Assembly (NCBI RefSeq): GCF_027579695.1
Contig: NC_083596.1
Location: forward strand, 51,064,400 to 51,128,399
Source: Neoarius graeffei
Lineage: Eukaryota > Chordata > Actinopteri > Siluriformes > Ariidae
Reading direction: 5' to 3'
Length of the DNA stretch: 64,000 bases
Shown: positions 1,075 through 51,372 of the stretch, one piece after another
Numbering within the stretch: the stretch's first letter is position 1
How the letters are laid out: each line of letters begins with the position of its first letter
Made by a program: the position numbers and the translations under genes
The notes under the pieces: generated by a model
The model's database searches: none
The model's input: the letters and a program-made list of their open reading frames with translations, nothing else
Told to the model about the DNA's origin: nothing

Positions 1075-3926
<2,852 letters not shown>

Positions 3927-5528: not shown

Positions 5529-5604
5529 GCTGTAAAATTAATGCTATTATACTGAGAAATGCGAAAATAAATGTTAACAAAAAATTGGAACTATGTTTGT
5601 TGTT

Positions 5605-5983
5605 GGGCGGCACGGTGGTGTAGTGGTTAGCGCTGTCGCCTCACAGCAAGAAGGTCCTGGGTTCGAGCCCCGTGGCCGGCGAGGGCCTTTCTGTGCGGAG
5701 TTTGCATGTTCTCCCCGTGTCCGCGTGGGTTTCCTCCGGGTGCTCCGGTTTCCCCCACAGTCCAAAGACATGCAGGTTAGGTTAACTGGTGACTCTAAAT
5801 TGACCGTAGGTGTGAATGTGAGTGTGAATGGTTGTCTGTGTCTATGTGTCAGCCCTGTGATGACCTGGCGACTTGTCCAGGGTGTACCCCGCCTTTCGCC
5901 CGTAGTCAGCTGGGATAGGCTCCAGCTTGCCTGCGACCCTGTAGAACAGGATAAAGCGGCTACAGATAATGAGATGAGATGAG
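5605..5983 (+). mobile_element. tRNA-derived SINE (Mermaid-like), copy A
   Basis: Begins gggcggcacggtggtgtagt and has pol III promoter-like boxes in its head (A-box-like gtagtggttagc, B-box-like gggttcgagcc). A long conserved body carries cccacagtccaaagacatgc, and the tail is made of gatga repeats. A 12-bp target duplication, atgtttgttgtt, flanks it at 5593-5604 and 5984-5995. The body is shared with all other copies in the window. Confidence 0.9.
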
Positions 5984-7662: not shown

Positions 7663-7671
7663 TTATAGTTA

Positions 7672-8046
7672 TCTCATCTCATTATCTGTAGCCGCTTTAT
7701 CCTGTTCTACAGGGTCGCAGGCAAGCTGGAGCCTATCCCAGCTGACTACGGGTGAAAGGCGGGGTTCACCCTGGACAAGTCGCCAGGTCATCACAGGGCT
7801 GACACATAGACACAGACAACCATTCACACTCACATTCACACCTACGCTCAATTTAGAGTCACCAGTTAACCTAACCTGCATGTCTTTGGACTGTGGGGGA
7901 AACCGGAGCACCCGGAGGAAACCCACGCGGACACGGGGAGAACATGCAAACTCCGCACAGAAAGGCCCTCGCCGGCCACGGGGCTCGAACCCAGGACCTT
8001 CTTGCTGTGAGGCAACAGCGCTAACCACTACACCACCGTGCCGCCC
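7672..8046 (-). mobile_element. tRNA-derived SINE (Mermaid-like), copy B
   Basis: Reverse-oriented copy beginning with the tctcatctcattatctgtag tail complement and ending with ccgtgccgcc. Target duplication cattatagtta at 7661-7671 and 8047-8057. Close identity to copy A suggests recent insertion. Confidence 0.9.
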
Positions 8047-8114
8047 CATTATAGTTATATTTCATTTATTTATTTTTGCAATATTGTATTTATTTTATTT
8101 TTTAAGTTTAAAGT

Positions 8115-8476
8115 TTAGATAATATTATTTATTGTGCTTTTCCCCCCCATCAGTGGGCTGCTGTGTGTGCGCGCGCGCGTGCAGAGTTTTATGAAACCGA
8201 CAGGGGGCGCGAACGGGCGCGCGCACACACACACACACACACACGCACGCGCGCAGTGTGGGAGGCAGCGCGCGCGCTGATGCTGTCCCGGAGGTTCGGG
8301 ATTCGACCCGGTGTGCGCGCGCGCTTTTGTCGGGATCGCGTTAATATTTAAAGCGCCTCCATCTTTATTTCTGTGAGGCATGCAGGAGGAGGAGGAGGAG
8401 CGCGGCTGCGTGTCTCGCGCGTCGTGATCTCAGCGCGGAGCAGAGAGTCCCGTTAATCCGCTCCGACTGGAAATAA
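8115..8476 (+). promoter_or_regulatory. GC-rich promoter and 5' UTR region of zc3h12b
   Basis: CpG-dense sequence with gcgcgcgcg and cgcgcgct runs and a (CA)n tract lies immediately 5' of the zc3h12b start. A tatttaaag element sits near 8344. An in-frame TAA stands directly before the ATG at 8477. The region contrasts with the AT-rich flanks and reads as a CpG-island promoter, though the transcription start cannot be placed. Confidence 0.5.
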
Positions 8477-8801
8477 ATGGTTTTGGAGCTGGCAGCTCCC
8501 GCCGGTGCAGGCCCGCTGCTGCAGCGCTCCATCCCGCACATCGAGCGCCTTTTCCGGGTCAGGGTGAGCTGCAGCGCCGCCGACACCCCCACACACCCCC
8601 ACACACACCCACACACACACCCACACACACCCAGCGGCCCCGGGACGCACAGCCACACCCACTCCGAGCCCAGGAGCGAACCGGAGAGCGGCGGCCGTGT
8701 GGTCGTGATCATCCGGGATGGCACGGAGGAAGACTGCAGCAGGGCGAAAGTAAGTGCACAGGGACCTGACAGCATCACGGGGTGTTTACTGAGGACCTGC
8801 T

Positions 8802-8839
<38 letters not shown>

Positions 8840-10592
8840 AGCTCAGGGTGAAACATACAGAACAGCAGCAGAGAACTAAAACCACACACCGGGGATCAGC
8901 TTCCTCCAAATGAGGCACTTTATTTCCACATCAGCACTTTAAACCTTCTGTCAGAAATAAAACACTCCTCGTGCTCTTATGGAAAATTAATCAACGTGAT
9001 CATGTTACCGCTGTTATCTCCATGACGTTGATGGTTTTCCTACAACAGCAGCGCGCCGGTGCACGGAGTGTTTTATTCCTCTTACACTCCAGACATTTCA
9101 CCACCACCGAGAAACTTTTTCGTTGCGTTTAATGTTAAAAAATAAAGTTCTCAGTCGCATTAAAGCAGCCGTAAACAATCTTTCCGTCACCAGACCACTA
9201 CAAGAAGACGCGCAAGCTCCTCTCTCGCACCCACACGACATCAGAAAACACACAGCTTTTTTACTTCTGACTGTTACAAAACGCTGACACTAGAGACTCC
9301 TTCCGTGAACGCGACGTAAAAGTATCACTTTTAAATTTTGTTCTCGGCGGCAGCGCGTCTCACACGCACACGTCCCTGTGACGAGCTGTTACAGTATTAT
9401 GTCAGGACGAGCGCATTAATATCCATCTGTACGGCTGTCAGAGCTGCATATGATTACAGAAGCGTACGATCTTTAAAGCGGCCGTCTGTAAATTTGGGTA
9501 AGTTTCTGTAAATCTGTAATAACTCTATAATAATTTAATTATTATTATAAACATTAGATCCTGTGCTCCTGAACATGAGCAACAAATCTCCTTTGTTTCT
9601 TTACTTCATGCCTTTGTTTACATTTTTCTGGCCTGGAAATGCAGCCCCGCCCCTACCTTAAATACTACCCTTAAGCTCCACGACTTTTTCTTTCAAAAGT
9701 AACTCATGAGGCGTAGAGAGTTTTCACAGATTGGGTGGGGTCGGGTGCAGGTGACGATAAAGTTCTTGTTATTTTAAATTGCAGTTCACTTCACTAGCAG
9801 CAGAGGGCACTAAACTTTACAAACAGCTTCTTTAAAATAATCACTGATGCCAGAAATTATGATGCGAGATCAGTAACCTGTAACATTTATGGTGATTAAT
9901 AGCCTAGCTAGCTTGTTCATTAGTCTAACACTTGCTGCTAGCTGTTTATGTTCAGATAACATCGCGTTATTGAACAGTTAATACACGTTAAAATATTTTT
10001 TCAGTCTTTCACATGAGCATGATGAACGTGTGACATTGCATCACCTTCGTGTCAGCTGCATAGCTAACTGTTTGTGATTTCAGCCATATTTATCAGTGCC
10101 TTGGACTGAAATCGGTATTTTTCATCAAGAATTTACCTTCCTTCTTAACATTCCTTTTCTTGATATGGATTCAAGACCAAAGTTTCTAACTAGCAAGGAT
10201 GATTCTGGCAAAGTCGTTAGCTCACTAACTAGCATTTTCTGCCTTAGAACTCAAAATGTTTCTTTCAAAGCTAATATCAGTGAAAATTCACTCAAAAACT
10301 AGCATTTTTAAGTGGATTAGCATGAGGTGCTATGTTCTGCTGTCTGAGATTTCAATATTTAAAGCCTAAACAGATTAGCACAGCTTAAATTTCTTATGTG
10401 AAATGTTTGTAATGTTGTTTTTTCGCGTTTATTATTCTGTGCTGTTGAGTTGAATAGTTAGCATTGTTGTTGAATGCTAATTATATAACAAGCTAATTCG
10501 TCCAGATCATTTCAGGATGTAACTTGGCATCTTTTTGGAAAGAAGCTCTTTCCTATCTGATGCTCTCATGATGATGGTGTTTACAGGAACGC

Positions 10593-10639
<47 letters not shown>

Positions 10640-10784
10640 ACGCTCACAAAGCTAGTGTTCTAGCAGCCGTGATGCACAGCATGCATGGAGAGTGCGTGTG
10701 CGGCGCTCCACCGTGGGCCTCGAACAGGCCTGATGCGCTGCTTCACGGCAGAACACACTCCACTTGTTGCTATGAGACGAGCTG

Positions 10785-10816
<32 letters not shown>

Positions 10817-12511
10817 CTTGAGAGCACGGTGGCCTTGCTGCTTTCCCAGCCTGTGTTATGGAGGAGGTGAGGATGGAGAACAGGAAAACAAGTGATGAGA
10901 GAGAGAGAGAGAGTGTGGAGGAGGACTTGGAGATGCGTAACGTTTACAAAATATCTGTCTTTAATTTCTTGGGCCTGTTGAAATCTTTCATGACTCACTG
11001 TTCATCGGCCATGTTGGGAAAGTTTGTGGTTATGTTTATGATGTTGTGTAAACACTGAATCGTTGCGTCATGCTTCATCAATGCTTTTACTTCCTGTCAG
11101 GATTGTGTCAGTTCTTGTGTTTGTTCTGATTAATGACTGATCAATTCTGATCCAGATCTCTGAGTCACAAATACAGCAACCATTTCGGTTGCGTTCAGAC
11201 CGACCGAACACATTTCTGTGTTATCGAGAGCAGATATAACATTTCTAGAAGTTCCAGAGGTCCGATCCCGTCCCAACCGAAGGCTCCGGCGAAGTATCGC
11301 AACCCGACATGAGTTATCAAAAACAAACCGATGTGTACAGCACAGCTTCCTGTTCATGGGAATTCCACATTATTCACATTCTTGCTCCATCTCAAATCCC
11401 AGCACAACAAGACCAAGTAAATCAGAAGGCGAGTGCCCGGTGAAGCTCCAGAACCATGATAAAGATTATATTTAAGGGAAGTTTAGAGTTATAAATGTAA
11501 TCCTCAAGCACCTCAGGACAATCTCTTACTCCAGTCCAGAGCTAAACATCTACAATACCAAACTTCATCCAGAACCAAGATCAAGTTTCAAGAGCAAAAA
11601 GATTAATTACGTTTTAGAAGCAACTTGAGAACCAATTTCACATTACACACAGACTCTAGAACCAGTGTTGTAGTCGAGTCACAAAACCTTGAGTACAAGG
11701 CCAGTCCAAGTCATAAAAAAAAATTTCGAGTCGAGTCCGAGACTCCAACCGCACCATGTGACGGTGTCTGTTTCAGCGCCATTAACGTGAGTTTGTTCCT
11801 GAACATGCCGTATGAACAGGTGAGTGTGCTTCTCTTTGTCAGGGAGTGTGAAGTATTCTGTCAGGGATGGCTGGGAGACGGATGTACGTGCAGAAAGTGT
11901 GTTTATTAATACAAGTGAAGACGGTAAACAATCCAGAACGGCAGGTAAAATCGTGAAACAGGCGATAGGTCGAGCGAGGCACAAACAGGCTATCGTAGAC
12001 TCGGCAGGATCAAAGACGAGAAACAGGAAATCAGGGATCAGGAACCCAAACAAGGGAATAAGGCTCGGTAATGTGTCAGTAACGCAACTCAATACTTCGC
12101 AAAGTAAGTGTGTTTTCACAGTTTCTATATCGGCAAGCTGATTGTGTCTTAATCCTGTGCAGGTGCGAGTCGTTTATGTTGTGTGCGCGAGAGTCCGCTT
12201 GGCATGCGCGCTGTCCGGAGCGCCCGAGAGTCTATCTGATGCACGCATCAAGGCATGCAGGTGTCACACTCTTACACGAAATTAGTACAAAAATTAACGT
12301 AGGTATAAATATCTTGCGCCAAATTATTATAGCATGTTACAAAAATTTAAGAAAAAATTAGAGTCCTCGTCTCTAATTTACGAGTCTGAATGCAGTTAAT
12401 GTCCGAGTCTGAGTCCGAGTCATCAGTGCTCAAGGCCTGGTCGAGTCACGAGTCCTTAAAATGATTGCAGGAGTTGGACTCAAGTACTACAAGCCTGTCT
12501 TGAACCGATCT

Positions 12512-12567
<56 letters not shown>

Positions 12568-12607
12568 CTAGAACTGATCTCACATCAGACACACTGATTC
12601 TAGAACC

Positions 12608-12670
<63 letters not shown>

Positions 12671-12756
12671 TCACACACACAGACTCTAGAACTGATCTCA
12701 TACACACTGACTCTAAAACCAATCTTATGCCTGACACACAATGACTCAAGAACCAA

Positions 12757-12822
<66 letters not shown>

Positions 12823-13704
12823 ACTTTGAATGTCTGCTGCAGCAGCAGTGCTGAGGTCAGCAGAAGAAGCCTGAGATCAGCTGTTAGCAGCTGAGTTGAA
12901 ACTTTAACCTGATCTGAGATCAGATATTATGGAGTATAAGAGACTGCAGCGTCAGACTGTACGCTGATCTCAGGTCAGATGTGAGGATTTAGTGCTGACT
13001 GTAGCTGACCTGAGTCAGCTGTCACTTTGCAGCAGTGTGATGCACGACAGAACTGGACTGATCCAAGATCAGTTTTAACAGTTAGTGTCACTAATTCAGA
13101 GTTGCAAGCAGTGCTTCTCTGCTGATTTGGATTCAGTTCTTCAGGGATCAGCAGTTATGTCGTATTGGACCCCTGAAGGTAGACTGATCTAAGATCAGGT
13201 GTGAGGAATGAGTCCTGCTGAGCCTCGGTTCACTGATCTGGAGTCAGTTGTTACACACCAGCATTGCTAAGATCAGCAGAAGTAGTGGCAGAAGACTGAT
13301 CTGAGATCAGCAGACTGCAGGAAGTGGTGCTGCTAAACCCCAGCTGAGTGGAACTGACCTGAAATCAGCAACGTTGTATAAGAAACCCGCGACTGACTGA
13401 TCTGAGACCAGCTGGATGTGTTTGATGTTGCGAACACTCAGTGAGTGCACTGAGTGCACTGACAGGCATGAGACTTTCACCTGACCTGGGATCAGCTGTG
13501 GTGTGAGTAGAGGTGTTTGTCTGCAGCGCTCGGCCATACGTTGATCTGACATCAGTTTTTAAAGCCACTGATCTGACATCAGCTGTTGTTGTAGCTGAGC
13601 AGAGGCGGAAGGGGACCCTGAGGGACGCGGCGTCACGACTCAGAGAGACGGCCGTGTCACAGCGAGGAAGGAGGGGAACACACTCCGACACATCTGCAGA
13701 GACG

Positions 13705-13735
<31 letters not shown>

Positions 13736-14131
13736 AAAAGGGATGAGAGGAGGAAGTGAAAGAGAGATGGGGGAGGGGGAGGAGAGAGAGAGAGAGCCCC
13801 TAATGTCGTAAGACTGTTATTTCCAATGATATGTTATTCTGAAACTTTGCGTATTGCGTAACACACACACACACACACACACGAAATGTGCCGCTCCACC
13901 TCCGTGTCATGGCTGTGTTTACATGTGCACAATGCAGCTCCATGTGACTAGAGCATTGGCGTGTGTGTGTGTGTGTGTGTGTGTGTTTCAGGCTTGCCCA
14001 GAGAACATTGTGCAGTGTTTTGTGTTAGTCGTGACTGCTAAAAAGCAGTTAGCTGATGACAGGACTGCGTTGCTAGGCAACCGGTGTCATGAGCACAGAG
14101 AAGCCTCTCATAGCTGGATGGTGATATCGGC

Positions 14132-14166
<35 letters not shown>

Positions 14167-14214
14167 ACTACAGCCCACACTACAGCTCTGTTCACAGGTA
14201 CATAGGCAGGAACT

Positions 14215-14277
<63 letters not shown>

Positions 14278-17200
14278 TCATGTCTGGATTTCCAGTAAAC
14301 AAATAAACATTAAACAAATTCCAGTAAACACATTCCGAACCGTTATAATACCAGGATTCAGCTTTTCCACGTGCCCCTGCGTCACCTGATGTACCTGTGA
14401 AAGTGGGCGGGGTTTCTGGATGAGACGCACTGCAGCTGAGAGGCATGTCTCATCTCATCTCATTATCTGTAGCCGCTTTATCCTGTTCTACAGGGTCGCA
14501 GGCGAGCTGGAGCCTATCCCAGCTGACTACGGGCGAAAGGCGGGGTTCACCCTGGACAAGTCGCCAGGTCATCACAGGGCTGACACATAGACACAGACAA
14601 CCATTCACACTCACATTCACACCTACGCTCAATTTAGAGTCACCAGTTAACCTAACCTGCATGTCTTTGGACTGTGGGGGAAACCGGAGCACCCGGAGGA
14701 AACCCACGCAGACACGGGGAGAACATGCAAACTCCACACAGAAAGGCCCTCGCCGGCCACGGGGCTCGAACCTGGACCTTCTTGCTGTGAGGCGACAGCG
14801 CTAACCACTACACCACCGTGTGAGAGGCATGTACAACTCAAAATTTGCATAATTAGTAGTGTTTTTAGCTGAATTATCTCTCTAGCCAAGGGAAATTAGC
14901 GAGTTTTACTAGCACGCTAGATTAGCTCTGATTTGACTCCGTTCATATTAAAAACAACGTCATGTCCAGTGAAGGATACGCCCTGAAATACACCGCACAC
15001 TTATTGCTCCTGTTCATGGTCGGATGAAGAAGAAGAATAGAACAACATTCTCTTTAACGTAGGAAGGGTTTTAATGAACCGAGCTTGCTAACTAGCGCGT
15101 TGAGGAAAATCATGATTCAGCAAATTCAATGTTTTATTTTTAAATATTTGTCTGTGGACCATTTTGATCTTGATATTTTGAGGGAATCAAACAGACTTCA
15201 CTCAGTCCACCCTTTAACACAGCGCGAGGGATTGACCTGAAGCCGAACGGTGAGGGGACGTCAGTCAGGGCGCGATGTAAACAGTGTTGGAACACAGCCA
15301 CGCGGTGATGGCGAGACAGGAGAAGTTGTGTTCTCTCTGGATAAACGCTCTGACGTTCTGAAGCATCACACCGTGAACTCAAGAGTTTTTGCTTCTAATT
15401 GAATAATTTCTCCCAATCAGAGATCACAGAATGTTCCGGACTGTTTAGTTCCACCAGTAACGTGAGAGAACACCAAGCTGTCTCAGCATGTACAGTGGTG
15501 CTTGAAAATTTGTGAACCCTTTAGAATTTTCTATATTTCTGCATAAATATGACCTAAAACATCATCAGATTTTCACACAAGTCCTAAAAGTAGATAAAGA
15601 GAACCCAGTTAAACAAACGAGACAAAAATATTATACTTGGTCATTTATTTGTTGAGGAAAATGATCCAATATTACATATCTGTGAGTGGCAAAAGTATGT
15701 GAACCTCTCGGATTAGCAGTTAATTTGGAGGTGAAATTAGAGTCAGCTGTTTTCAATCAATGGGATGACAATCAGGTGTGAGTGGGCACCCTGTTTTATT
15801 TAAAGAACAGGGATCTATCAAAGTCTGATCTTCACAACACATGTTTGTGGAAGTGCATCCTGGCACAAACAAAGGAGATTTCTGAGGACCTCAGAAAAAG
15901 CGTTGTTGATGCTCATCAGGCTGGAAAAGGTTACAAAACCATCTCTAAAGAGTTTGGACTCCACCAATCCACAGTCAGACAGATTGTGTACAAATGGAGG
16001 AAATTCAAGACCATTGTTACCCTCCCCAGGAGTGGTCGACCAACAAAGATCACTCCAAGAGCAAGGCGTGTAATAGTCGGCGAGGTCACAAATGACCCCA
16101 GGGTTACTTCTAAGCAACTGAAGGCCTCTCTCACATTAACATTAGCCAGTGTTCATGAGTCCACCATCAGGAGAACACTGAACAGCAAATGGTGTGCATG
16201 ACAGGGTTGCAAGGAGAAAGCCACTGCTCTCCAAAAAGAACATTGCTGCTCGTCTGCAGTTTGCTAAAGATCACGTGGACAAGCCAGAAGGCTACTGGAA
16301 AAATGTTTTGTGGATGGATGAGACCAAAATAGAACTTTTTGGTTTAAATGAGAAGCGTTAAGTTTGGAGAAAGGAAAACACTGCATTCCAGCATAAGAAC
16401 CTTATCCCATCTGTGAAACATGGTGGTGGTAGTATCATGGTTTGGGCCTGTTTTGCTGCATCTGGGCCAGGACGGCTTGCCATCATTGATGGAACAATGA
16501 ATTCTGAATTATACCAGCGAATTCTAAAGGAAAATGTCAGGACATCTGTCCATGAACTGAATCTCAAGAGAAGGTGGGTCATGCAGCAAGACAACGACCC
16601 TAAGCACACAAGTCGTTCTACCAAAGAATGGTTAAAGAAGAATAAAGTTAATGTTTTGGAATGGCCAAGTCAAAGTCCTGACCTTAATCCAATGGAAATG
16701 TTGTGGAAGGACCTGAAGCGAGCAGTTCATGTGAGGAAACCCACCAACATCCCAGAGTTGAAGCTGTTCTGTACGGAGGAACGGGCTAAAATTCCTCCAA
16801 GCCGGTGTGCAGGACTGATCAACAGTTACCGCAAACGTTTAGTTGCAGTTATTGCTGCACAAGGGGGTCACACCAGATACTGAAAGCAAAGGGTCACATA
16901 CTTTTGCCACTCACAGATATGTAATATTGGATCATTTTCCTCAGTAAATAAATGACCAAGTATAATATTTTTGTCTCATTTGTTTAACTGGGTTCTCTTT
17001 ATCTACTTTTAGGACTTGTGTGAAAATCTGATGATGTTTTAGGTCATATTTATGCAGAAATACAGAAAACTCTAAACGGTTCACAAACTTTCAAGCACCA
17101 CTGTATATGAGAGAAACAGAGAGACAGAGAGAGAGAGAGAAAAGAGTAAGAGAGGGAGATGGAGAAAAAGACACCCACAGAGAGGCAGAGAGACAAACAG

Positions 17201-17708
17201 AAAGAGAGAGAGACAGAAAGACTGACAGACAGACAAACAGAGAGAAAGAGCGAGAGATAGTGAAAGAGAGACAGACAGAGAAAAAGAGACAGATAAACAG
17301 AGAGAAAGATAGAGACAGACAGACAAAGAGACAGACCCACAGAAAGGCAGAGAGACAGACAGAGAAAAGACAGACAAACAGAGAGAGAGACAGACAGACA
17401 GGGAAAGAGAGACAGACAGAGAAAAATAGGCAGACAAAGAGAGAGACAGACAGAGAAAGAGACAGACCCACAGAGAGGCAGACAGAAATTGAGTGAGAGA
17501 CAGACAGACAGAGGACGCGATAGAAGAGTGCTGAGGAGGAATGACACTTGTTTATAACTTTTTTACAGGTCACTCACTTCCTGTTTTTTTCTTTTCTATC
17601 ACTCTTTCTCCCACACTCCCTCCATTCCCTCTGTTATTTTTCTCAATCACACGCTCCCTCTTTTTTCTCTCACTCTCTCTTACTGTCTTTCTTTGTTTTC
17701 CTTCCTGT

Positions 17709-17747
<39 letters not shown>

Positions 17748-20700
17748 GTTACTTTCCTTCTCCTTCTTTTAATTTTAACTCTCTCCCTCTCTCTGTCCGT
17801 GTGCAGGATTACATCGTGTCCCTGATCTCTCCGGTGCAGAGGCATCATGAGCGTTTGACCCTGTGGCTCCAGCGTCGTCTTCGCGAGCCCGAGAGCTCCG
17901 AGGCCCGAGAGCATGCGCCCGAGCTGATGGAGGACGAGGAAGGAGAGGAAGAAGGGAGTAGCTCGGAGAGCGAAGGAGAGAGACGGAGTGCAGGAAGAGG
18001 ACACGGAGGAGAAGGAGGAGGAAGAGGAAGGAAACCTGAGCTGATGATGGCAACTAAACCTCACCGCCAGCTGTGTCGCTCTCCGTGTCTGGACCGTCCG
18101 AGTTTCAGCCAGAGCAGCACCCTACAGGAAATGCGCACTGATGACTCTCCGGCCACTCCCACTTCTTTGTCACTGGCACCACCCACTCCTTCAGTGGGCC
18201 ACACCCCTTCAGATCGGGACTACCAGAGCAAAATGGAGTTTGCACTGAAGTTAGGCTACTCCGGCGAGCAGGTGGAGGCCGTGCTGAGCAAACTGGGACC
18301 GAGCGCGCTTACTAACGATGTCCTGGCCGAACTCGTGCGTCTCGGGAATAAAGGAGAAATCGAAGCACAAACACCGACGCAAACGTCCGCCGGACTAACA
18401 CCAACCGGGTTAGCGCTAACCCCACGCGGCTCTGGAGCAAAAGAAGCCGTGAGTCCTGAGGTGTCACTTGAGGAGGAGACAAACGACACGTACGATAACC
18501 TCCGACCCATCGTTATAGACGGATCCAACGTGGCCATGAGGTACAGATTTGCGTGCTGGGTTTTTGCAACATGGTGTAAATTAGCTCAAATCAAACATGA
18601 GCCAGTGGGAGTGGGCGGTGTTGCAGAATAGAAAGGTTTACAGCAATGGAGAAATTTAGGAAATGTGAGAGGACATAGTGCAGTTAAATTTCTTTGTATC
18701 ACACTTTTAACAATCAACATCGCCACAAAGCAGATTTACAGAAATCCGGATATAGATTTGCTCTGATTGAAAGAAGAATGTTGCCAGGTGTGTCACAGCT
18801 GGCCAGTGTCGTACATAAACGTGCTATATTAATGCCGTTTATTGAACCTGCTCATATTTTTGGTGAACGTTGAACTGAACGAATCAGTTTGCAACTAATG
18901 AACGTGACCGTGAGCCTTGGCTACTCTGGCGAGAGTGACCGACGCTCACGCACAAGAAGGCCCCGACCAGAAGGTGGCAGTGATGCAGCGTAAAGCCGTC
19001 TGGCAACTGCCAAAAACCATCAGAAGAAGAACAACCACTGTGTTTTAGCATTCTAGGAATTACATTTGTACTTGCGATGGCAATACAGGCGGCACTACGC
19101 TATAAAAACTACGCTTTTCACTTCACAGCTGATCAGCGAGGGTTTAGTCGTATTGAGCGGTAAAATATGAGACAAACCAGCATCCCTGGCTTTTAAAGCA
19201 TCCTGTATAGGGCAGGACAGGCTTGATGATCACCTGTATATCAACGCATGTATCTTTTCGTATGTGTATAAGTAACTTGGGATCTGGAATGTTTTGTAGC
19301 CATGGAAACAAAGAGGTTTTCTCATGCCTGGGCATCCAGTTGGCAGTTGACTGGTTCCTGGAGCGAGGACACAAAGACATCACAGTGTTTGTACCAGCAT
19401 GGAGGAAAGAGCAGTCCCGACCCGACGCTCCTATAACAGGTGTGTATGTAAAAGAACGCAGGACTACCGTGTCGGTTGTCAGGTTTATCCGGTTAAAGCG
19501 TGTTTCTTTTGTCGTTATGAGACGTAACATTTGATGCCACCTCTGTTTTCAGATCAGGAAATCCTGAGGAAGCTGGAGAAAGAGAAAATCCTTGTCTTCA
19601 CTCCTTCTCGTCGAGTCCAGGGACGGCGTGTCGTCTGTTATGACGATCGGTTTATTGTTAAATTGGCGTGCGATTCAGATGGCATCATCGTGTCAAACGA
19701 TAACTATCGAGATCTGCAGAACGAAAAGCCAGAGTGGAAAAAGTTCATCGAGGAACGCCTTCTCATGTACAGTTTCGTCAATGACAAGTAAGCTACAGTT
19801 TTTATTTCATTTTTGTTCTCTTGACTCTTTAGGCATGTAAACAGTAATGTTTCTCATTACATCATTTTAAGTTTTTTAATCTTTTTTTGTAGGTTTATGC
19901 CACCGGATGACCCCCTCGGTCGACATGGTCCAAGCCTGGAAAACTTCCTCCGCAAGAGACCCGTCATTCCGGAGCATAAAAAGCAACCGTGTCCTTATGG
20001 TCAGTACGGCAAATGTAGGCAACTATCATTACGTCAAAGATTAAAATACGGCTAAAAAAGTTGTAATTAAATATTTGACTTTCCGCTTTGTTTTTATTTT
20101 CTTCAAATTTTAGGTAAGAAGTGCACATATGGTCACAAGTGCAAGTACTACCACCCGGAGAGAGCAGCGCAACCTATACGCTCTGTTGCAGATGAACTCC
20201 GAGCTTTCGCCAAGCTCTCTGCTGTCAAGACCATGAGCGAAGGTGCTCTTGCAAAATGTGGCACTTCTGGCACCACTGCAAAAGGGGACTGTTCTGAGGT
20301 GAAACGAGTGGCGCCGAAACGTCAGTCAGACCCGAGCATCCGTTCAGTGGGCTGCGAGCAGGAGGAACGACTCTGCCTGGCTCGGAAAGCTGAAACTAGT
20401 TCAGTTCCGTCTTTAGTGACGGCTCTTAGCGTCCCAACCATGCCACCGACAAAAAGTCACGCAGCTGGGGCACTGAACACTCGTTCTGCTAGTAGCCCAG
20501 TACCGGGGTCACTTCACTTCACACACAGCTCGCTAGAACATGCTGGAAGCATCCAATACCCTCCAATTTTGGTCACCAACAGCCAGGGTGCATCCGTGGC
20601 ATACAGTGAACCTTTTCCCAAATACGATTCCGTGGTTAGTGACCATGGCTACTATTCGATGCTGAGTGATTTCTCCACCATGAGCTTAGGAAGCATGCAA

Positions 20701-21582
20701 GACAGCTTTTGTAGCTTAGAACAGCCAGATCCGGTCGGAGTCGGAGGAGGATATCCTGGTAGAGCTTCCAGCATTTGTCCTGAATCTGGACGCAGCCACT
20801 CTTCGGACTCATTCTCCTCCTACGGTGGAGAGATGTACTCCATGGAAGGTAGCTTGGATGATGGGATGAAAGGTCCACCATCTGCGCAATCCCAAGTGCA
20901 ATCCCAGGCACAGTCCCGCTTGCAAGCATTTGCACATGGATTCCACCATGAGGCTTTGACGAGAGTCCAAAGTTATGGCACGGATGAACCCAAACCGGGG
21001 CCACGCAAACAATCCTCGGCCCACCTTGTGCCTCACGCGCAGCATCCGGTGGTTGGAGCTCGATCCAGTTGCCCTGGTGACTATCCTCTGCTTCCCCAGA
21101 ACATGTTGCCTTCGTCCGGCCCTACTCAGCCAGGCAGATCCTTGGGAATGACACGAATGGACAGCATTTCAGATTCCCGTCTTTATGAAAGTAACCCCCT
21201 CCGGCAGCGTCGGCCCCCTCTGTGTCGAGAGCAACATGCCAGTTGGGATCCTTTGCCGTGTGGGAATGAGCCTTACGGTTACGGAAGTTATGGATTGACG
21301 GGAGGACTCATGCCTTGCTGTGAACGAGTGATGGTTCGGAGTATGCCAGAAAAGATGGAACAGATTTGGAGGTCGCCGTGGGATACGCCACCAGGACCTC
21401 ACGGACCGGTGGAACCGCAAGAGCGACATCCGATCCCTGAACATCAGTATCAGACTTACAGAAACCTCTGCAATATCTTCCCAGCATACGTAGTCCACTC
21501 GGTCATGGAAAAGAATCCTCATATGACGGATCCTCAGCAGCTAGCGGCGGTTATTGTAACGAAGCTACGGTCCTGTCATTGA
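8477..21582 (+). CDS. zc3h12b: ZC3H12B (Regnase-2-type ribonuclease), six exons
   Basis: Coding exons are 8477-8749, 17807-18540, 19300-19439, 19553-19787, 19893-19999 and 20114-21582. All have GT/AG borders and matching phases, giving 2958 nt and 985 residues. In order: a KH-like N-terminus (about 16-100, see findings), an acidic/Ser-rich stretch, the conserved [10 protein letters not shown] motif, a UBA-like helix bundle (about 229-275), and the NYN/PIN nuclease domain (about 324-470) with acidic residues D329 (VIDGSN), D413/D414 (YDDRF) and D432 (SNDN). A CCCH zinc finger C-x5-C-x5-C-x3-H follows at 494-510, then a long low-complexity tail ending in a conserved C-terminal helix ([15 protein letters not shown]). 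Regnases cleave stem-loops in cytoplasmic mRNA 3' UTRs. ZC3H12C is the closest alternative by sequence; synteny with zc4h2 and las1l decides for B. The start is supported by the adjacent in-frame TAA. All catalytic residues appear intact. Confidence 0.93.
8585..8660 (+). repeat. CA-rich microsatellite inside zc3h12b coding exon 1
   Basis: Repeated cacacaccc units in frame encode a [16 protein letters not shown] segment followed by GTHSHTHS. This places a Thr/His/Pro low-complexity loop between the two halves of the KH-like region. It is probably length-variable between individuals. Confidence 0.85.
9170..9395. repeat. Unclassified interspersed repeat, copy 2 (zc3h12b intron 1)
   Basis: Counterpart of 3260-3560: caccaga, cagctttttt, gacactagagactccttcc and gagctgttac occur in the same order and orientation, with substantial divergence. 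Confidence 0.5.
9396..11654. other. zc3h12b intron 1, mostly unrecognised unique sequence
   Basis: AT-rich intron sequence without recognised coding similarity. It contains (GT)n tracts at about 10595-10638 and 10784-10811 and a short (GA)n near 10898-10914. Confidence 0.5.
11663..12497. mobile_element. Non-autonomous hAT-like element with 8-bp target duplication
   Basis: The left end reads cagtgttgtagtcgagtc. The right end, reverse-complemented, reads caggcttgtagtacttgagt, giving imperfect terminal inverted repeats. Flanking octamers tctagaac (11655-11662) and tcttgaac (12498-12505) differ at one base, as expected for an aged 8-bp duplication. The interior is rich in gagtccgagt-type repeats near both ends and carries an unrelated insert-like block around 11840-12110. 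No transposase is encoded. Confidence 0.65.
12506..12830. repeat. Compound (CA)n/(CT)n microsatellites with actctagaac spacers
   Basis: Runs of CA (12514-12563 and 12762-12820) and CT (about 12611-12666) are separated by repeated phrases of the type gactctagaaccaatct, which also occur left of the hAT-like element. The whole is a degenerate minisatellite whose units each carry a dinucleotide expansion. Confidence 0.85.
12863..13584. repeat. Array of about 13 degenerate palindromes, consensus ctgatctgagatcag
   Basis: Palindromic motifs resembling tgatctgagatca recur at about 12908, 12963, 13004, 13055, 13121, 13183, 13231, 13295, 13353, 13396, 13480, 13541 and 13567. Spacing is mostly 40-70 bases, and gctgtt or gtgagg often follows. 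The sequence between motifs is only weakly similar, so the palindromes are better conserved than the spacers. No protein or known transposon is evident. Confidence 0.75.
13860..14275. repeat. Cluster of (CA)n/(GT)n microsatellites
   Basis: CA runs at 13861-13882, 14134-14163 and 14216-14274 and a GT run at 13960-13985 are separated by unique sequence. Open frames of MCVCVC type here are artefacts. Confidence 0.95.
14449..14820 (-). mobile_element. tRNA-derived SINE (Mermaid-like), copy C
   Basis: Reverse-oriented copy in zc3h12b intron 1, from tail complement ctcatctcatctcattatct to head complement ccactacaccaccgtg. Target duplication tgagaggcatgt at 14437-14448 and 14821-14832. Confidence 0.9.
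14833..15490. other. zc3h12b intron 1 stretch, nothing recognised
   Basis: No repeat family, coding similarity or RNA gene is recognised between the SINE and the Tc1 element. Confidence 0.5.
15493..17103 (+). mobile_element. Full-length Tc1-like transposon, copy 1
   Basis: Inserted at TA (15491-15492 and 17104-17105). The terminal inverted repeats are long: the left begins cagtggtgcttgaaaatttg and the right ends caagcaccactg, with pairing extending for roughly 200 bases. The element is 1611 bp, the usual Tc1 size, and contains one transposase frame. It lies in intron 1 of zc3h12b in the gene's orientation. Confidence 0.93.
15860..16883 (+). pseudogene. Decayed Tc1 transposase of copy 1
   Basis: The frame shows the paired helix-turn-helix region ([17 protein letters not shown] in copy 2, [17 protein letters not shown] here; [31 protein letters not shown]) and a DDE catalytic core with [20 protein letters not shown] and [11 protein letters not shown]. 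The expected ATG is CTG at 15860-15862. A net one-base frameshift occurs near 16150-16200, and a TAA at 16359-16361 interrupts the core, so it is inactive. About 340 residues would be the family length. Confidence 0.9.
17106..17515. repeat. Purine-rich (GA/GACA)n block
   Basis: About 400 bases almost free of T on the plus strand, built from gagagacagacagacagag-type units. It starts directly after the Tc1 right end. The opposite strand gives the artefactual SVCLSLC frames. Confidence 0.95.
17576..17800. repeat. Pyrimidine-rich block before zc3h12b exon 2
   Basis: CT-rich sequence with a (CT)n run at about 17711-17742 leads into the exon 2 acceptor at 17806. It serves as an unusually long polypyrimidine tract and is complementary in composition to the purine block upstream. 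Confidence 0.9.
18541..19299 (+). other. zc3h12b intron 2
   Basis: Intron between the exon ending in the VIDGSNVAM codons and the exon starting with HGNKEVFSC. No repeat is recognised. The other introns (19440-19552, 19788-19892, 20000-20113) are about 105-115 bases, as is common in compact fish genes. Confidence 0.7.
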
Positions 21583-31304: not shown

Positions 31305-32425
31305 AGTGGTGCCGAAACCCGAGACCGAGCACAGGAAAAGAACAGCCCCATGGAGTCCTCCCCCTTCACAGACCTGGTCCACGCCCTCGCCATGGCCCAG
31401 CAAAGCCAGCACCAGGTGCTAGTCAACCTCCGGAAGGAGCAAGAGCACCGGTTTGAGGCCCTGGTGCTGGCGCAGCAGGAAGATCGACAGGCGTTCTGGC
31501 ACCTCCTCGCGTTGGCGGGGTCCACCATCTCCACTGCCGCGGGCCCTTCTTCCCTCACCCCAAGATGGGCCCGCATGACGACCCCGAGGCCTTCCTCACG
31601 CTCTTCGAACAGGCAGCAGAGGCCTCGGGCTGGCCGGTGGAACAGCGCACCGCGTGCCTCCTCCCCCTGCTAATGGACGAGGCGCAGCTGGCCGCGCTAC
31701 AGCTCCCCGCCAATCGCCAGCTGGTCTACGCAGACCTTCACCTGGCCGTCCTCCAGCGGGTGGGGCGCACCCCCGAACAAAAGCGACAGCGCTTCCATGC
31801 TCTGCGTCTGGAGGAAGTCGGCCGGCCATTGGCGTTTGGCCAGCAGCTCCGGGACGCCTGCTGGCGGTGGTTGAGGTGGTTGTCGGTGGTTTGGCCAACA
31901 ACCGCAACGCCGAGGGAATCATCGATCAGGTGGTACTGGAGCAGTTCATCGCCTGCCTACCAGAGAGAACCGCAGAGTGGGTCCAGTACCACCGCCCGGC
32001 TTCGCTGGATCAGGCCATCGAGTTGGTGGAGGACCATTTGGCGGCTGTTCCGATGGCAGGACAGTGGACATCCTCTTCTCTCCTCTCCTTTCTCTCTCTC
32101 CCCCTCTTTCCTCCTGTGTCTCGTCCTCGCCCCGTTCCCCCACCGCGGAGGCGGGGGCCGGCCCCACCCCAGCCAGCCCGTCGCACCTGCGGTGCCCTCC
32201 CGTTTTTCCCTTCTGTGTCTGTCTCTTACCCCCCCTCAGGTGAGTGAGCCCCAGATCGCCAGTGCAGAGAGGAAGCCCGGGCCGGTTTGCTGGCGCTGCG
32301 GGGAGCCGGGCCACCTCCAACAGCAGTGCTCGGCAATGGAAGTGGGCGTGGTGGTTCGGATCCCCGATGCGCCAGGAGCCGCCCTCGATCGGGCTGGAGC
32401 ATATCGCATACCGGTGAGTATCCAA

Positions 32426-33476
32426 TAGGGGTGTGCAAAATAATCGTCATGACAATGCATCGCGATACTAACTTTCACGATATACTGCATCGATTCTTGA
32501 CGCCAAATATCGATTATTAATTTTAAAAAATGAATAAATAAAATTGTATGAATGGTTGGCGAACATCAGCCAAAAACAAGTAGAATACAACTTCCAGTCC
32601 TGTAGATGTCACCGTGGAGTCTTTGACGCCCGCTGCCTTCATGCCAGTGGCATTTCTGGCGGCGGGCTACTGCGACCTAGACATTCTGCATAGACATCAT
32701 ATGCGACTGCGACTCTATTTACAAATCTCGCTGGAACAGCGCGCACGACATGCTTGAGCGCTTTTTAGAGCAACAGCCTGCCATCCACGCTGCACTCCTG
32801 TCTGCAGAAATACGTAAATCTGAGAAGGACATCTGCACACTCACCGAGTCTGACATAACTGCTGCGGTACTACAACATGCTAAAAGAAATATGCTAAATG
32901 AGTGTATTGTTTCCTAATTTGAGGATGCTCCACAAACTATAAATGCATAAGGCATTTAAATATAATGTAAAGTAATGTAACAAATAATATAATGATGATG
33001 ATGATGATGATAATTTAATGTACTGAGTAATATAGTATATATATTTTGATATTTATTATTGCCTTGTCCTCCCATACTGCAGGTGCTGCAAAGAAATTGA
33101 AAACTGCTGCTATTAGTTTTCTTTTATTATTTTTAGTTTTATAAATCCTATGCAATTTTTGTCATTAGTGTGTCCACTCGTTAAGTATGGAAACAGTATT
33201 TGTTTTAATGGCAACTACCTCCAAAGTCGTTTCATTAAATTCAGTTATGAACTGAGTTGCTCTAAGTTATGCATCAATTGGAGACACTATCCAGATCGTA
33301 CACAGCCACTGGTAATTATGCTCTATTTTTTTTTACATTTTCACTGAAGTATGTTGAATATATCGCAATGCATTGCAATAATTCAAGAATCGTGATGCAT
33401 CGTGATAGTATCGCATCGTAGCATGTGAATCGTGATTCGAATTGAATCGTGACTTCTTTGCCAATACCCACCCCTA
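32426..33476 (+). mobile_element. Non-autonomous hAT element inside the Gypsy element
   Basis: Terminal repeats start taggggtg at both ends. A perfect 8-bp target duplication, gtatccaa, stands at 32418-32425 and 33477-33484. Subterminal regions are rich in atcgtgatgcatcgcgat-like repeats. The middle (about 32716-32872, plus strand) encodes a remnant of a hAT transposase helix (RWNSAHDMLERFLEQQPAI followed by EIRKSEKD). It is internally deleted and about 1.05 kb long. Confidence 0.92.
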
Positions 33477-36400
33477 GTATCCAAGGGGATACATATCAGG
33501 CTCTTGTGGACTCTGGCTATAATCAGACCTCAATTCACCAAAGCCTGGTGCAAGACGAGGCATTGGGGGGAGCACAGGGGGTGAAGGTGTTGTGTGTGCA
33601 TGGGGATGTTCACAGCTACCCTTTAGTGTCGGTCCACATTTTTTTCCGAGGGGAAAAATTTAGAGTAAAGGCGGCAGTTAATCCTTGCCTTACCCACTTG
33701 ATAATTTTGGGGACTGATTGGCCGGGATTCGGGGAGTTAATGAGCCATTTAGTGAAGAGTGGGTCCTGCCGTAGTTCAGCAGGGGGAGGTCCCGGTGTCG
33801 CATTGGCGGGAGCAGCTGTCACAGAGCCGTCTACGTCATCTCCGCGTCAGAGTGAGGAGCCTCTGGCTCCTCCTCCCTCTCTTGGGGAATCCCTCGCGGA
33901 TTTCCCGTTAGAGCAGTCGCAAGATGAGACTCCGCGGCATGCGTTTGACCAAGTGAGAGTAATCGATGGTCAAACGCTCCAGCCAAACGCCACCCCGTCC
34001 TTCCCCTATTTTTCTATTATGAAGGATAGATTATACCGAGTGACGCAGGACACTCAGACGAAAGAACGAGTCACACAGCTTTTGATTCCAAAGAGCCGCC
34101 GGGAATTGGTATTCCAGGCGACTCACTTTAATCCCATGGCTGGACACTTAGGGCAGGATAAGGCACTAGCCTGACTAATGGCCCGGTTCTATTGGCCAGG
34201 GATTCGCAGCGATGTCCGTAGGTGGTGTACGGCGTGCCGCAAATGCCAGTTAGTAAATCCAGCAGCCATTGCAAAAGCGCCTTTGCGCCCTCTACCATTA
34301 ATCGAGACCCCGTTCGAAAGAATTGGGATGGATCTCGTCGGGCCATTAGATCAGTCAACACGAGGGTACCGCTTTATATTAGTTCTGGTGGACTATGCAA
34401 CGCGATACCCGGAAGCAGTGCCTCTTCGCAATATCTCAGCACGCAGTATTGCGGAAGCACTCTTCCGCGTCATTTCCCGAGTTGGAATCCCAAAAGAGAT
34501 TCTGACTGACCAAGGCACCTTGTTTATGTCACGTACACTGAATGAACTGTATGGGTTATTAGGTATTAAGCCGATCCGCACCAGCGTGTATCACCCACAA
34601 ACGGACGGTTTAGTTGAACGGTTCAATCGCACCCTCAAGAATATAATTAAAAAATTCGTAAGTGAGGACGCACGTAATTGGGATAAATGGCTCGAACCCT
34701 TGTTATTTGCAGTGCGAGAGGTCCCCCAAGCCTCCACGGGGTTCTCCCCGTTCGAATTATTATATGGACGTAAGCCACACGGCATTTTAGATGTGCTGCG
34801 AGAAAATTGGGAGGAGGGACCTTCACCAAGTAAAAACGAAATTCAATACGTTATTGACCTGCGTGCAAAACTCCACACCCTCACACACCTAACCCAGGAG
34901 AATTTGTGGCAGGCCCAAGAACAGCAAACCCGCCTGTACGACAGGGGTACGCGCCTTAGAGAGTTCGCACCGGGAGATAAAGTACTCGTACTGTTGCCCA
35001 CATCGAGCTCCAAATTGATCGCCAAGTGGCAAGGACCCTTTGAGGTCACACGGCGAGTCGGGGACGTTGACTATGAGGTGAGGCGAATGGACAGGGGTGG
35101 GGCGCTACAGATTTACCACCTCAATCTGCTCAAACTCTGGAATGAGGAGGTCCCCGTAGCATTGGTGTCGGTGGTTCCGGAGAAGGCGGAGCTGGGGCCG
35201 GAGGTTCAAAAGGGAGCATTGGCATCGCGTACCTCTCTGGTCCCCTGTGGAGACCACCTCTCCCCGACCCAACTCGCGGAGGTTGCCCAGTTGCAGACCG
35301 AGTTTTCAGACGTGTTCTCGCCCCTGCCCGGCAGCACCGACCTCATAGAGCACCACATTGAGATGCCCCCGGGGGTGGTAGTGCATAGCCGCCCTTACAG
35401 GCTACCCGAACACAAGAAAAAAGTGGTTCGGAAAGAACTCCAGGCCATGCTCAAGATGGGCATCGTCGAGGAGTCCCACAGTGACAGGAGCAGCCCGGTG
35501 GTCTTGGTACCCAAGGCCGACGGGTCGGTCCGGTTCTATGTGGACTATAGAAAAATCAACGTGTTGTCTAAATTCGACGTGTACCCAATGCCTCGTATTG
35601 ATGAGTTGCTCGATTGACTAGGCACGGCTCGCTTTTACTCGACACTGGATTTGACAAAGGGTTATTGGCAGATCCCCTTGACTCCATTATCCTGAGAAAA
35701 AACGGCCTTTTCCACACCGTTCGGCTTACACCAGTTTGTCACACTTCCTTTTGGGTTGTTTGGGGCGCCCACTACGTTCCAGCGGCTTAGGGTCCTCTGC
35801 CCCCACGCCACCTATGCAGCCGCGTACCTCGACGACATCATTATTTATAGTAATGACTGGCCACGGCACCTACAACACCTGAGGGCCGTCCTTAGGTCGC
35901 TGAGGCGAGCGGGTCTCACAGCCAACCCGAAGAAGTGTGCGATTGGGCGGGTGGAAGTACGGTATCTGGGCTTCCACTTGGGCAACAGGCAGGTGCGTCC
36001 CCAAATTAACAAGACAGCAGCGATTGCGGCCTGCCCGAGGCCCAAGACCAAAAAGGGGGTGAGACAGTTCCTGGGGCTGGCTGGCTACTATCGTAGGTTT
36101 ATACCTAATTATTCGGACGTCACCAGCCCGCTGACTGATCTCACTAAAAAGGGGGCACCAGATCCGGTCCAGTGGACGGAGCAATGCCAGCGGGCTTTCT
36201 CTGAGGTAAAGGCTGCACTGTGCGGGGGGGCCACTGTTACACTCCCCTGACTTTTCTCTCCCTTTTATGTTACAGACGGATGCGTCGGACAGAGGGCTGG
36301 GGGCCGTGTTGTCCCAGGAGGTTGAGGGGGAGGACCGTCCAGTGCTGTACATCAGCAGAAAGCTGTCAGTATGCAAGGGGCGTTACAGCACGATTGAAAA

Positions 36401-36689
36401 GGAGTGTCTCGCGATCAAGTGGGCGGTCCTCGCCCTCTGCTACTACCTGCTGAGACGCCCTTTCACCCTCTGTTCGGACCACGCGCCCCTCCAGTGGCTC
36501 CACCGCATGAAGGATGCCAATGCGCGGATCACCCGTTGGTATCTGGCACTCCAACCCTTTAACTTCAAGGTGATCCACAGGCCGGGGGCGCAGATGGTTG
36601 TGGCGGACTTTCTCTCCTGTCGGGGGGGGGGGGGGGGGAGTCAGTTGCAGGCCGGACAGCTGCCCGGCCTGAGTCGGGCAGTGGGGGTA

Positions 36690-36880
36690 TGTGGCAGCGG
36701 GGGCGTGGTCAAGCGCCGGTCTGTGACCGGAGGGCGGAGTCAGGGAAGGTAAGTGGCAGAATCACTACACCTGATGTCAATTAACCTGTGTTTGTGTGTC
36801 TTCCCAGTGACTGCGCCTATATAAAGAGAGAGAGAGCAGAGGAAGTGAGCTCTCTCCTGAACCAGACGACTTGTGTGTGT
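36690..36880 (+). repeat. 3' LTR of the Gypsy element, first part
   Basis: Matches the first 191 bases of the 5' LTR with a single difference. The remaining LTR sequence resumes at about 37929 after the Penelope-like insertion and ends near 38051 at a C run. Confidence 0.9.
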
Positions 36881-38200: not shown

Positions 38201-38682
38201 AAGAAAAAGGAGTTTTCTTCAGCTTGTCCCCATGAGCCCCAAAATAAATCTGTTAACCTTTCAGGTAAAAACTACACGGAGAAGATAAATCACTCTTCCA
38301 GAACGGAAAAGTAACGGATGTTGTGTTTTCCCACCTGACTGTATTTAACGGAATGTTCCGGAATGTTAACCTCGCGAGACCCGATATGGCGTATAACTGA
38401 CGGGGCGGTGAGTCCATTGTAGTGAAAAGCCCAAGGTGAGACATGAACTCATGACCAACACGGCACGAGTCGAGCTGCATCACGTCTCTGTTGAGTCTCT
38501 TCCTGTTTCTGAACATTTGTTTATTTCCAGTAAAGACGGTTTATTACGTTTTTACTGATGCAGTGGGACGCCGTGTCCTCCGACTCGGTTTCAGTCTGGA
38601 AGCACGACGCCTCGAGACACGATTCCTACACACACCGCGTACTAACTCTGAACCTCACACACCTGCTTTCAGTCACAGATTC

Positions 38683-39043
38683 CCTCCTGAATTAAACCCC
38701 GCCTTCTGCTACTCTGCTGATTTAAACCCCGCCTTCTGCTACTCTCCTGAATTAAACCCCGCCTTCTGCTACTCTCCTGATTTAAACCCTGCCTTCTGCT
38801 ACTCTCCTGATTTAAACCCCGCCTTCTGCTACCCTCCTGAATTAAACCCCGCCTTCTGCTACTCTCCTGATTTAAGCCCCGCCTTCTGTTACTCTCCTGA
38901 TTTAAACCCCACCTTCTGCTACTCTACTGATTTAAACCCCTCCTTCTGCTACTCTCCTGATTTAAACCCTGCCTTCTGCTACTCTCCTGATTTAAACCCC
39001 GCCTTCTGCTACTCTGCTGATTTAAACCCCGCCTTCTGCTACT
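38683..39043. repeat. 30-bp minisatellite, block 1
   Basis: Twelve units of the type ctcctgatttaaaccccgcc plus ttctgctact. The block ends where a TIR element is inserted at 39044 and resumes at 40475. Because 30 is a multiple of three, it is open in frame on both strands (DLNPAFCYSP on plus). Confidence 0.97.
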
Positions 39044-40474
39044 CAGAGATCCCAGCAGTAATTGAAAAAAATAGAGGAATGTAAGAAACTATCACCGGGC
39101 GGCATGGTGGTGTAGGCTAGTGGTTAGTGCTGTCGCCTCACAGCAAGAAGGTCCGGGTTCGAGCCCCGTGGCCGGCGAGGGCCTTTCTGTGCGGAGTTTG
39201 CATGTTCTCCCCGTGTCCGCGTGGGTTTCCTCCGGGTGCTCCGGTTTCCCCCACAGTCCAAAGACATGCAGGTTAGGTTAACTGGTGACTCTAAATTGAG
39301 CGTAGGTGTGAATGTGAGTGTGAATGGTTGTCTGTGTCTATGTGTCAGCCCTGTGATGACCTGGCGACTTGTCCAGGGTGAACCCCGCCTTTCGCCCGTA
39401 GTCAGCTGGGATAGGATCCAGCTCGCCTGCGACCCTGTAGAACAGGATAAAGCGGCTAGAGATAATGAGATGAGAAACTATCAGCAGGGGTCAAGGGGGC
39501 TGCCTGAAGCTGTTGAGATTTTAACATTTAAAGATGCTATAGAACACATTTTTTTACATAGATTTAACATAGAAAAGCAACAGAATTTAACCATAATGTG
39601 TATCTATTTGATGCCATATTTTGTAATCAATGACATAAGTGGCAAAAAAAAATAATATAAAAATTGAAGAATATACTTGCCTAAATATTCCACTGATTTT
39701 GTTATAACAATAGTATCCATAGTTCATCTCATTTGTTTATTTTTTTTGTTTCAAGTTAATGTCAAAACTAGTCTAATATAAGCCACATTCATTTTTCAAA
39801 AATCATGAATATGAGCAGAAATCAATGATTCAGTAATATTAGATATATACATATGTACAGCAAATACTGGAGATATTTGATTTAAACCTCTCTTTTTGAA
39901 AGGTTTCACTGCAAAGGAATGTAATGCTCTTTTCTGGGGTGCATTTTGTCTTTCCTCCAGTTTTCTCTGCTTTTGTTTCTCTGATCTTTCCTTCTGCTTT
40001 TCTGATGTTCCTGCAGTGCTCTGAATTAAGTTCAACGCATTAGAAACAAAAGCACGAACGGAGTTAAAACATGTTTTCTCGCAAATGGGCGTAGCCATAT
40101 TGTTTTCTTGTTCTATTGCGTACAGTCTCGCGGTCAGTGTTGCCAGATACTCCTGACGTTTTCCAGCCCAAAATATGTTCAAAACCCGCCAAAATGCACT
40201 TGAAACCCCCCAACTGGGCGGAGAACTGCGCAATCTGGCAACACTGCTCGCGGTATTTACGTCAATTTAACTTCCGAGTGTTCCCGAATGTCCACGAGAA
40301 CAAACGAAGCCGACGAAAACATCGCTAAACAAGCAAACCAAATCAGAACGTATTCTGCTGGTCATTTTACTTAAACATATTTTTAATGGATATACAAGAG
40401 ATTTAAAAAAAAAACAAAAACTTTCGCTAGAAAATAGCGGAATTCCGCTAAATAGCGGACGTCTGGGATCCCTG
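39044..40474. mobile_element. DNA transposon with short terminal inverted repeats, unclassified
   Basis: The left end cagagatcccag and right end ctgggatccctg are inverted copies with one difference. The flanking minisatellite shows gctact on both sides (39038-39043 and 40475-40480), an apparent 6-bp duplication. About 1.05 kb remain after subtracting the nested SINE. A 145-codon minus frame at 39796-40233 has a plausible basic composition but no recognised domain. The right subterminal part carries repeated ttccgcta/tagcgga motifs. Confidence 0.65.
39095..39474 (+). mobile_element. tRNA-derived SINE (Mermaid-like), copy D
   Basis: Nested in the TIR element. Target duplication aaactatca at 39086-39094 and 39475-39483. 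The head carries a small insertion (gtgtaggctagtggtt), and the tail ends gagataatgagatgag. Confidence 0.92.

Positions 40475-51315: not shown

Positions 51316-51372
<57 letters not shown>

Follow-up and report, generated by a model that had tools for sequence, protein, structure and literature searches.

A KH module resembling the first KH domain of N4BP1 and KHNYN in the predicted ZC3H12B protein of Neoarius graeffei

Results and discussion

The zc3h12b gene model

The zc3h12b gene of the fish Neoarius graeffei was studied in a stretch of 64 kb (contig NC_083596.1, positions 51,064,400 to 51,128,399, forward strand), which is referred to here as the window. Six predicted exons with GT/AG borders throughout were spliced into a single 985-residue frame (Table 1), and on its sequence the gene is ZC3H12B (Regnase-2), an RNA-cleaving enzyme of the immune system. 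Its exon 1 and the start of exon 2 probably encode one KH module homologous to the first KH domain (KH1) of N4BP1 and KHNYN, and both lines probably descend from one ancestral gene.

The ATG of exon 1 is preceded by an in-frame TAA and its donor is GTAAGT, while the acceptor at 17807 consists of a pyrimidine-rich tract followed by CAG. The junction of 8749 to 17807, predicted from the DNA, is in phase 0 and open, and the peptides that the original prediction had quoted from exon 1 and from the start of exon 2 are encoded where it had placed them. The reading frame of exon 1 runs without interruption through a CA-rich tandem repeat.

When the spliced protein was compared with Pfam profiles, matches were obtained to UBA_6 (70.2 bits, cut-off 23.5), to the NYN nuclease domain (PF11977, 230.7 bits, cut-off 23) and to Regnase_1_C (PF18561, cut-off 25.7; 64.3 bits with a 47-residue query and 60.5 bits with 135 residues). 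A CCCH motif (C-x5-C-x5-C-x3-H) was found by reading after the NYN domain, where the best Pfam finger model, zf-CCCH_2, gave 16.8 bits, below its cut-off of 25.8. UBA_6, NYN, the CCCH motif by reading, Regnase_1_C and the gene neighbourhood are all shared with the Regnase/ZC3H12/MCPIP family. Mammalian Regnase-2 is described as a protein of 836 residues with an N-terminal domain, NYN domain, zinc finger and C-terminal domain (NTD-NYN-ZnF-CTD) (PMC12982082), against 985 residues predicted for the fish protein. The Asp of the DGSNVAM motif is residue 329 in fish zc3h12b, while the inactivated Asp is residue 195/196 in mouse/human Regnase-2 (PMC9983307). In exon 3, zc3h12b reads FSCLGI where n4bp1 and khnyn of the same genome read FSCRGI, which is either a substitution or an assembly error.

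Table 1 Predicted exons of zc3h12b and associated sequence features (positions within the window)
Feature	Position	Strand	Content and basis
Exon 1	8477-8749	+	Residues 1-91 (91 codons); KH1 strand 1, helix, strand 2, loop insert, strand 3 and start of last helix (elements named by analogy to KHNYN KH1, PMC11997328, not derived from a model)
Exon 2	17807-18540	+	Remainder of KH1 last helix (DYIVSLISP), acidic linker, UBA-like domain, first NYN strand
Exon 3	19300-19439	+	NYN domain; gene model, PF11977 on spliced protein
Exon 4	19553-19787	+	NYN domain; gene model, PF11977 on spliced protein
Exon 5	19893-19999	+	End of NYN domain and start of CCCH finger; gene model
Exon 6	20114-21582	+	Remainder of CCCH finger, linker, C-terminal domain, stop; Regnase_1_C match
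CpG-rich stretch, possible promoter	7900-8770		Covers start of exon 1; base composition
CA-rich tandem repeat	8583-8633	+	Tandem Repeats Finder, periods 10 and 22; encodes part of Thr/His/Pro loop insert

Profile match of the N-terminal segment

Residues 4-98 of spliced zc3h12b matched PF23050 ("N4BP1, first type I KH-domain") with 50.1 bits and an E-value of 2.9e-13 (cut-off 27), covering profile positions 2-64 of 65. The KHNYN/N4BP1-like segment that the original prediction had proposed for the N-terminus of ZC3H12B was thus confirmed, since the profile comparison is significant. A shortened query, from which the Thr/His/Pro insert had been removed, gave 49.8 bits (E 3.5e-13). Exon 1 alone scored 41.6 bits.

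The same profile was searched over the 2.34 Gb assembly, with 6 candidates scored and reporting up to E 10. Three matches were found, all over the cut-off: C3 with 71.9 bits, C6 with 68.8 bits and zc3h12b exon 1 with 38.1 bits (E 2.7e-6). The C3 and C6 genes each match the KH1, KH2, UBA_N4BP1 and UBA_N4BP1_C profiles, and, after the mammalian proteins, we take the first to be khnyn and the second n4bp1. PF23050 gave 88.5 and 83.6 bits for n4bp1 and khnyn versus the 50.1 bits of zc3h12b. In khnyn (L019, 5311-6930, minus strand), a UBA_N4BP1 match of 89.1 bits is followed by DUF7070 (PF23255, 93.5 bits) ahead of the NYN domain.

Two further comparisons gave less. When the Protein Data Bank (PDB) was searched by phmmer with the insert-free query, human KHNYN (9cs9 and 9hts) came out on top with modest E-values of 0.0012-0.0013; the N4BP1 structure 6q3v was absent among the 5 sequences listed. 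This result (E 0.0012) is unconvincing by itself, and it is the Pfam profile and the introns that decide. A hidden Markov model (HMM) made from two sequences, n4bp1 and khnyn of the same genome, gave the spliced peptide 11.9 bits, while the best of 2000 shuffles reached 6.1. When the same HMM was run over open frames, the exon 1 frame was not listed up to E 10, so this HMM is weak and PF23050 carries the claim.

Could the resemblance be due to chance or composition? Such a reading would draw on the low pairwise identity, the low-complexity insert, the weak PDB E-value and the passing over of the exon 1 frame by the two-sequence HMM, with which unrelated frames reached 9.5 bits. It is contradicted by the Pfam match, which has nearly the same E-value with and without the insert, and by the shared predicted introns described below; the score above all shuffles also speaks against it, and we consider it extremely improbable.

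In several respects the segment is like KH1 of KHNYN and N4BP1: the profile match is nearly full-length, a proline stands at the place of the KHNYN helix kink, and the GxxG loop between helices 1 and 2 is absent (none was found by reading in zc3h12b residues 1-33). GxxG is also lacking in KHNYN KH1 (PMC11997328). The intron position predicted within KH1 is common as well, and KH1 of zc3h12b is N-terminal to UBA-like and NYN domains. It differs from them in having strands 2 and 3 separated by a long Thr/His/Pro insert, and in that no KH2 or helical bundle was found after KH1, which is followed by a CCCH-bearing Regnase.

Distribution of KH1, KH2 and UBA domains in the genome

UBA_6 was over its cut-off in five Regnase genes of the genome, and a sixth match (C22) was under it. 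Besides the genome-wide PF23050 search, KH1 was looked for in two other ways around the four Regnase genes other than zc3h12b. With zc3h12b residues 1-172 as the tblastn query, the roughly 40 kb around each of them yielded nothing at E 0.01 or better. The small HMMs, run over some 18-34 kb upstream of the UBA exons, reached best E-values of 0.48 (two-sequence) and 1.3 (three-sequence, which includes zc3h12b itself). Since the exon 1 frame of zc3h12b had itself escaped the two-sequence HMM, this upstream search is weak and the absence of KH1 from these genes rests on the genome-wide PF23050 result.

The KH2 profile (PF23052) was not listed up to E 10 for zc3h12b residues 1-335. Genome-wide it gave 6 matches, none of them on C29; the 3 over the cut-off all belong to n4bp1 and khnyn. 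A KH2 remnant was also sought in 8000-18600 by tblastn with n4bp1 KH2, and the sole hit up to E 10 (E 1.6) was dismissed. As predicted from sequence, zc3h12b is a Regnase with one KH module and lies outside the N4BP1/KHNYN family.

Shared introns and divergence

All introns compared here are predicted from DNA. The KH1 intron lies after the residues AK, in phase 0 and at the same residue in zc3h12b, n4bp1 and khnyn; the following exon begins with EYVKGLCDP in n4bp1, IFIKGVVNQ in khnyn and DYIVSLISP in zc3h12b. A phase-2 donor (DGSNVAM plus 2 nt) is likewise present in all of these genes and in three of the remaining Regnase genes; the last of the five Regnases (C2:15.08M) has DGSNVAI and, by reading, a GT two bases further on. 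In both lines the UBA-like domain lies on the exon flanked by the two common introns, with the order of domains unchanged, and khnyn has one additional intron inside KH2. These shared predicted positions argue for homology rather than mere resemblance.

The same comparison bears on the joining of exon 1 to exon 2. With a 9 kb intron and a junction predicted from DNA alone, exon 1 might instead be part of another transcript, but the profile match runs in frame across the junction (rising from 41.6 to 50.1 bits with the addition of exon 2) and the donor and acceptor are placed as in n4bp1 and khnyn, so that a separate transcript appears very improbable. We infer that a joined exon 1-exon 2 transcript is made and that the KH1 domain folds.

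In the KH1 core, identity was 16/60 between zc3h12b and n4bp1, 15/57 between zc3h12b and khnyn, and 26/57 between n4bp1 and khnyn. Identity in the NYN domain was 36-65 % between zc3h12b and n4bp1 or khnyn (eight pieces, some extending into introns), and 74 and 76 % between n4bp1 and khnyn (two pieces). The split of zc3h12b from n4bp1/khnyn thus appears to be old, before n4bp1 and khnyn parted.

A different origin of the module would be exon shuffling, in which an N4BP1-like gene supplied a Regnase gene with the KH1 exon once the families had split. KH1 is present in just one of the five Regnases of the genome, a first exon ending in phase 0 is movable, and the UBA profiles show no cross-matching between the two lines, all of which would suit such a transfer. 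Against it, exon 2 encodes the end of KH1 contiguously with UBA and NYN sequence, so that a moved exon 1 is unlikely; a predicted intron interrupts KH1 at an identical residue in zc3h12b, n4bp1 and khnyn, and the order of KH1 divergence parallels that of the NYN domain. We therefore regard shuffling as improbable.

Neighbouring genes, candidate promoter and repeats

A frame at 2807-3127 on the minus strand matched zf-C4H2 (78 bits), and another within 60701-61186, also on the minus strand, matched Las1 (32.8 bits); no profile match was obtained for the frame at 50879-51397. These two neighbours match the human gene order, which we take to be ZC4H2-ZC3H12B-LAS1L, and thereby support the placement of the gene as ZC3H12B.

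The CpG-rich stretch around the start of exon 1 is likely a promoter, to judge from its composition: across 8150-8770 the GC content is 0.649 and the observed/expected (o/e) CpG ratio 1.04, compared with a CpG o/e of 0.63 for the whole window. The top three 600-base CpG windows (GC > 0.5) begin at 7901, 8001 and 8101. Those from 7901 and 8001 overlap a dispersed repeat (7669-8061), and the CpG o/e of exon 1 itself is 0.77.

This dispersed repeat, with a recurring apparent frame on either strand, was also seen at 5578-5982, 14450-14800, 39128-39655 and 47601-48011, as well as beside khnyn and n4bp1 (L019, L020-L022). The interval 40448-43012 is filled by a long array in which a short unit (some dozen codons, judged by eye) is repeated in tandem; both strands remain open over about 850 codons, reading PDLNPAFCYS.. 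on the plus strand and GLNQESSRRR.. on the minus strand; related pieces lie at 38455-39084 and 46674-49159. Frames at 15782-16883 (in zc3h12b intron 1) and 57837-58742 look transposase-like and are presumably Tc1/mariner pieces, while those at 31457-36752 resemble what we take to be a Gypsy-type long terminal repeat (LTR) element.

Common ancestry of the two nuclease lines

On sequence grounds, KH1 and NYN are firmly placed as common to both nuclease lines. Their UBA-like and C-terminal domains are likely homologous too; the C-terminus of zc3h12b resembles UBA_N4BP1_C (CUBAN/CoCUN, PF23054), and this resemblance was counted toward shared ancestry although its scores (22.0 bits, E 1.4e-4; 19.4 bits with the 135-residue query) are under the cut-off of 27. 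The original prediction had proposed that the segment, if real, ties Regnase to KHNYN/N4BP1 through a KH-plus-NYN architecture, or else represents an alternative first exon that mammals have lost or that is unannotated there. The tie holds for the KH1 profile and the shared predicted introns, but KHNYN and N4BP1 carry two KH domains plus a helical bundle, of which only the first KH domain was found here.

Most likely, the ancestral gene would have had the plan KH - UBA-like - NYN - C-terminal helical domain and would have been the parent of the N4BP1/KHNYN and ZC3H12 lines. The Regnase line would then have gained the CCCH finger, with KH2 either lost or never present, and among the Regnases of this genome KH1 would still be visible in zc3h12b only.

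Several observations weigh against common descent. The genome-wide PF23050 search found no KH1 in the other four of the five Regnase genes. For zc3h12b, where UBA_6 fits instead, UBA_N4BP1 (PF23053) was absent from the matches up to E 10; conversely, neither n4bp1 nor khnyn had a UBA_6 match listed, and UBA_N4BP1 gave only 12 bits (E 0.19) on zc3h12c. Regnase_1_C reached 12.3 bits (E 0.15) on khnyn and was not listed for n4bp1. Single-sequence AlphaFold2, applied to exon 1 alone (91 residues, without the exon 2 part) to look for the beta-alpha-alpha-beta-beta-alpha fold of type I KH domains, gave a poor model with a pLDDT of 49.6. The joined transcript and the n4bp1/khnyn introns are known as DNA predictions only, and the evidence for exon 1 comes from one genome. 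Finally, at about 26 % the identity of KH1 is low, and the large microsatellite-like insert could mark relaxed constraint.

Possible role of KH1 without KH2

In KHNYN, where P29 forms a proline kink, KH1 packs on KH2 via R33, I34, F35, R65, Y69 and L73 (PMC11997328). The KHNYN ex-diKH domain showed no RNA binding, and R33A and R65A together lowered KHNYN antiviral activity (PMC11997328). At the positions of P29, R33, I34, F35, R65, Y69 and L73, zc3h12b has P20, R24, L25, F26, R89, Y93 and L97; six of the seven are identical and I34 is replaced by Leu. The corresponding residues are S, Q, V, F, K, Y and L in n4bp1 and P, R, V, F, A, F and V in khnyn of the same genome. In another study, some TRIM25 co-precipitated with the KHNYN KH region by itself, and this region has a part in the complex that KHNYN forms with ZAP and TRIM25 (PMC11685948).

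By analogy with KHNYN, the role of KH1 in zc3h12b is likely protein docking and not RNA binding. Other points speak against such a role. The equivalents of R33 and R65 vary in n4bp1 (Q, K) and R65 is Ala in khnyn, so the kept residues are weak evidence for docking; moreover, they face KH2 in KHNYN, yet KH2 was not found in zc3h12b. In the TRIM25 study, KHNYN deleted for KH bound only a trace of ZAP-L but still bound TRIM25 (PMC11685948), whereas the ex-diKH domain was dispensable for KHNYN-ZAP binding in the other study (PMC11997328), so that the two papers disagree.

KH1 might also be a fading relic, inherited and spliced but with its KH2 partner lost and little function now, a view that is compatible with common ancestry and denies function. 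It would fit the failure to find KH2 in zc3h12b and KH1 in four of the five Regnases, the microsatellite-like loop insert, and the PF23050 score that is lower than in n4bp1 and khnyn. It fits less well with an open frame and strong profile match kept despite a split that predates the n4bp1-khnyn divergence, or with the six identities and one Ile to Leu change at the aligned KHNYN-named positions, and we think it unlikely.

A docking role could be extended further, as a speculation to which we give little credence. The stem nuclease may have been one KH-UBA-NYN-CUE-like protein, and the orphan KH1 of zc3h12b, with its KH2-facing surface intact, may dock in trans (e.g. on a KH2-like face of N4BP1/KHNYN or on a shared cofactor) and so join inflammatory and antiviral RNA decay in one complex.

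Significance for the Regnase and N4BP1/KHNYN families

The published scope of this domain is the antiviral nucleases KHNYN, N4BP1 and NYNRIN only (PMC11997328), and the KH proteins are treated apart from the CCCH proteins MCPIP1-4 in a further source (PMC7226360). No report of a KH domain in Regnase/ZC3H12/MCPIP proteins was found among the open-licence PMC papers listed by the literature searches. A Regnase with KH1 and NYN and the same introns would unite both nuclease classes as one family that inherited KH1. Standing without KH2, the KH1 of zc3h12b would also be a natural case for learning what the ex-diKH domain, whose function is unknown, does.

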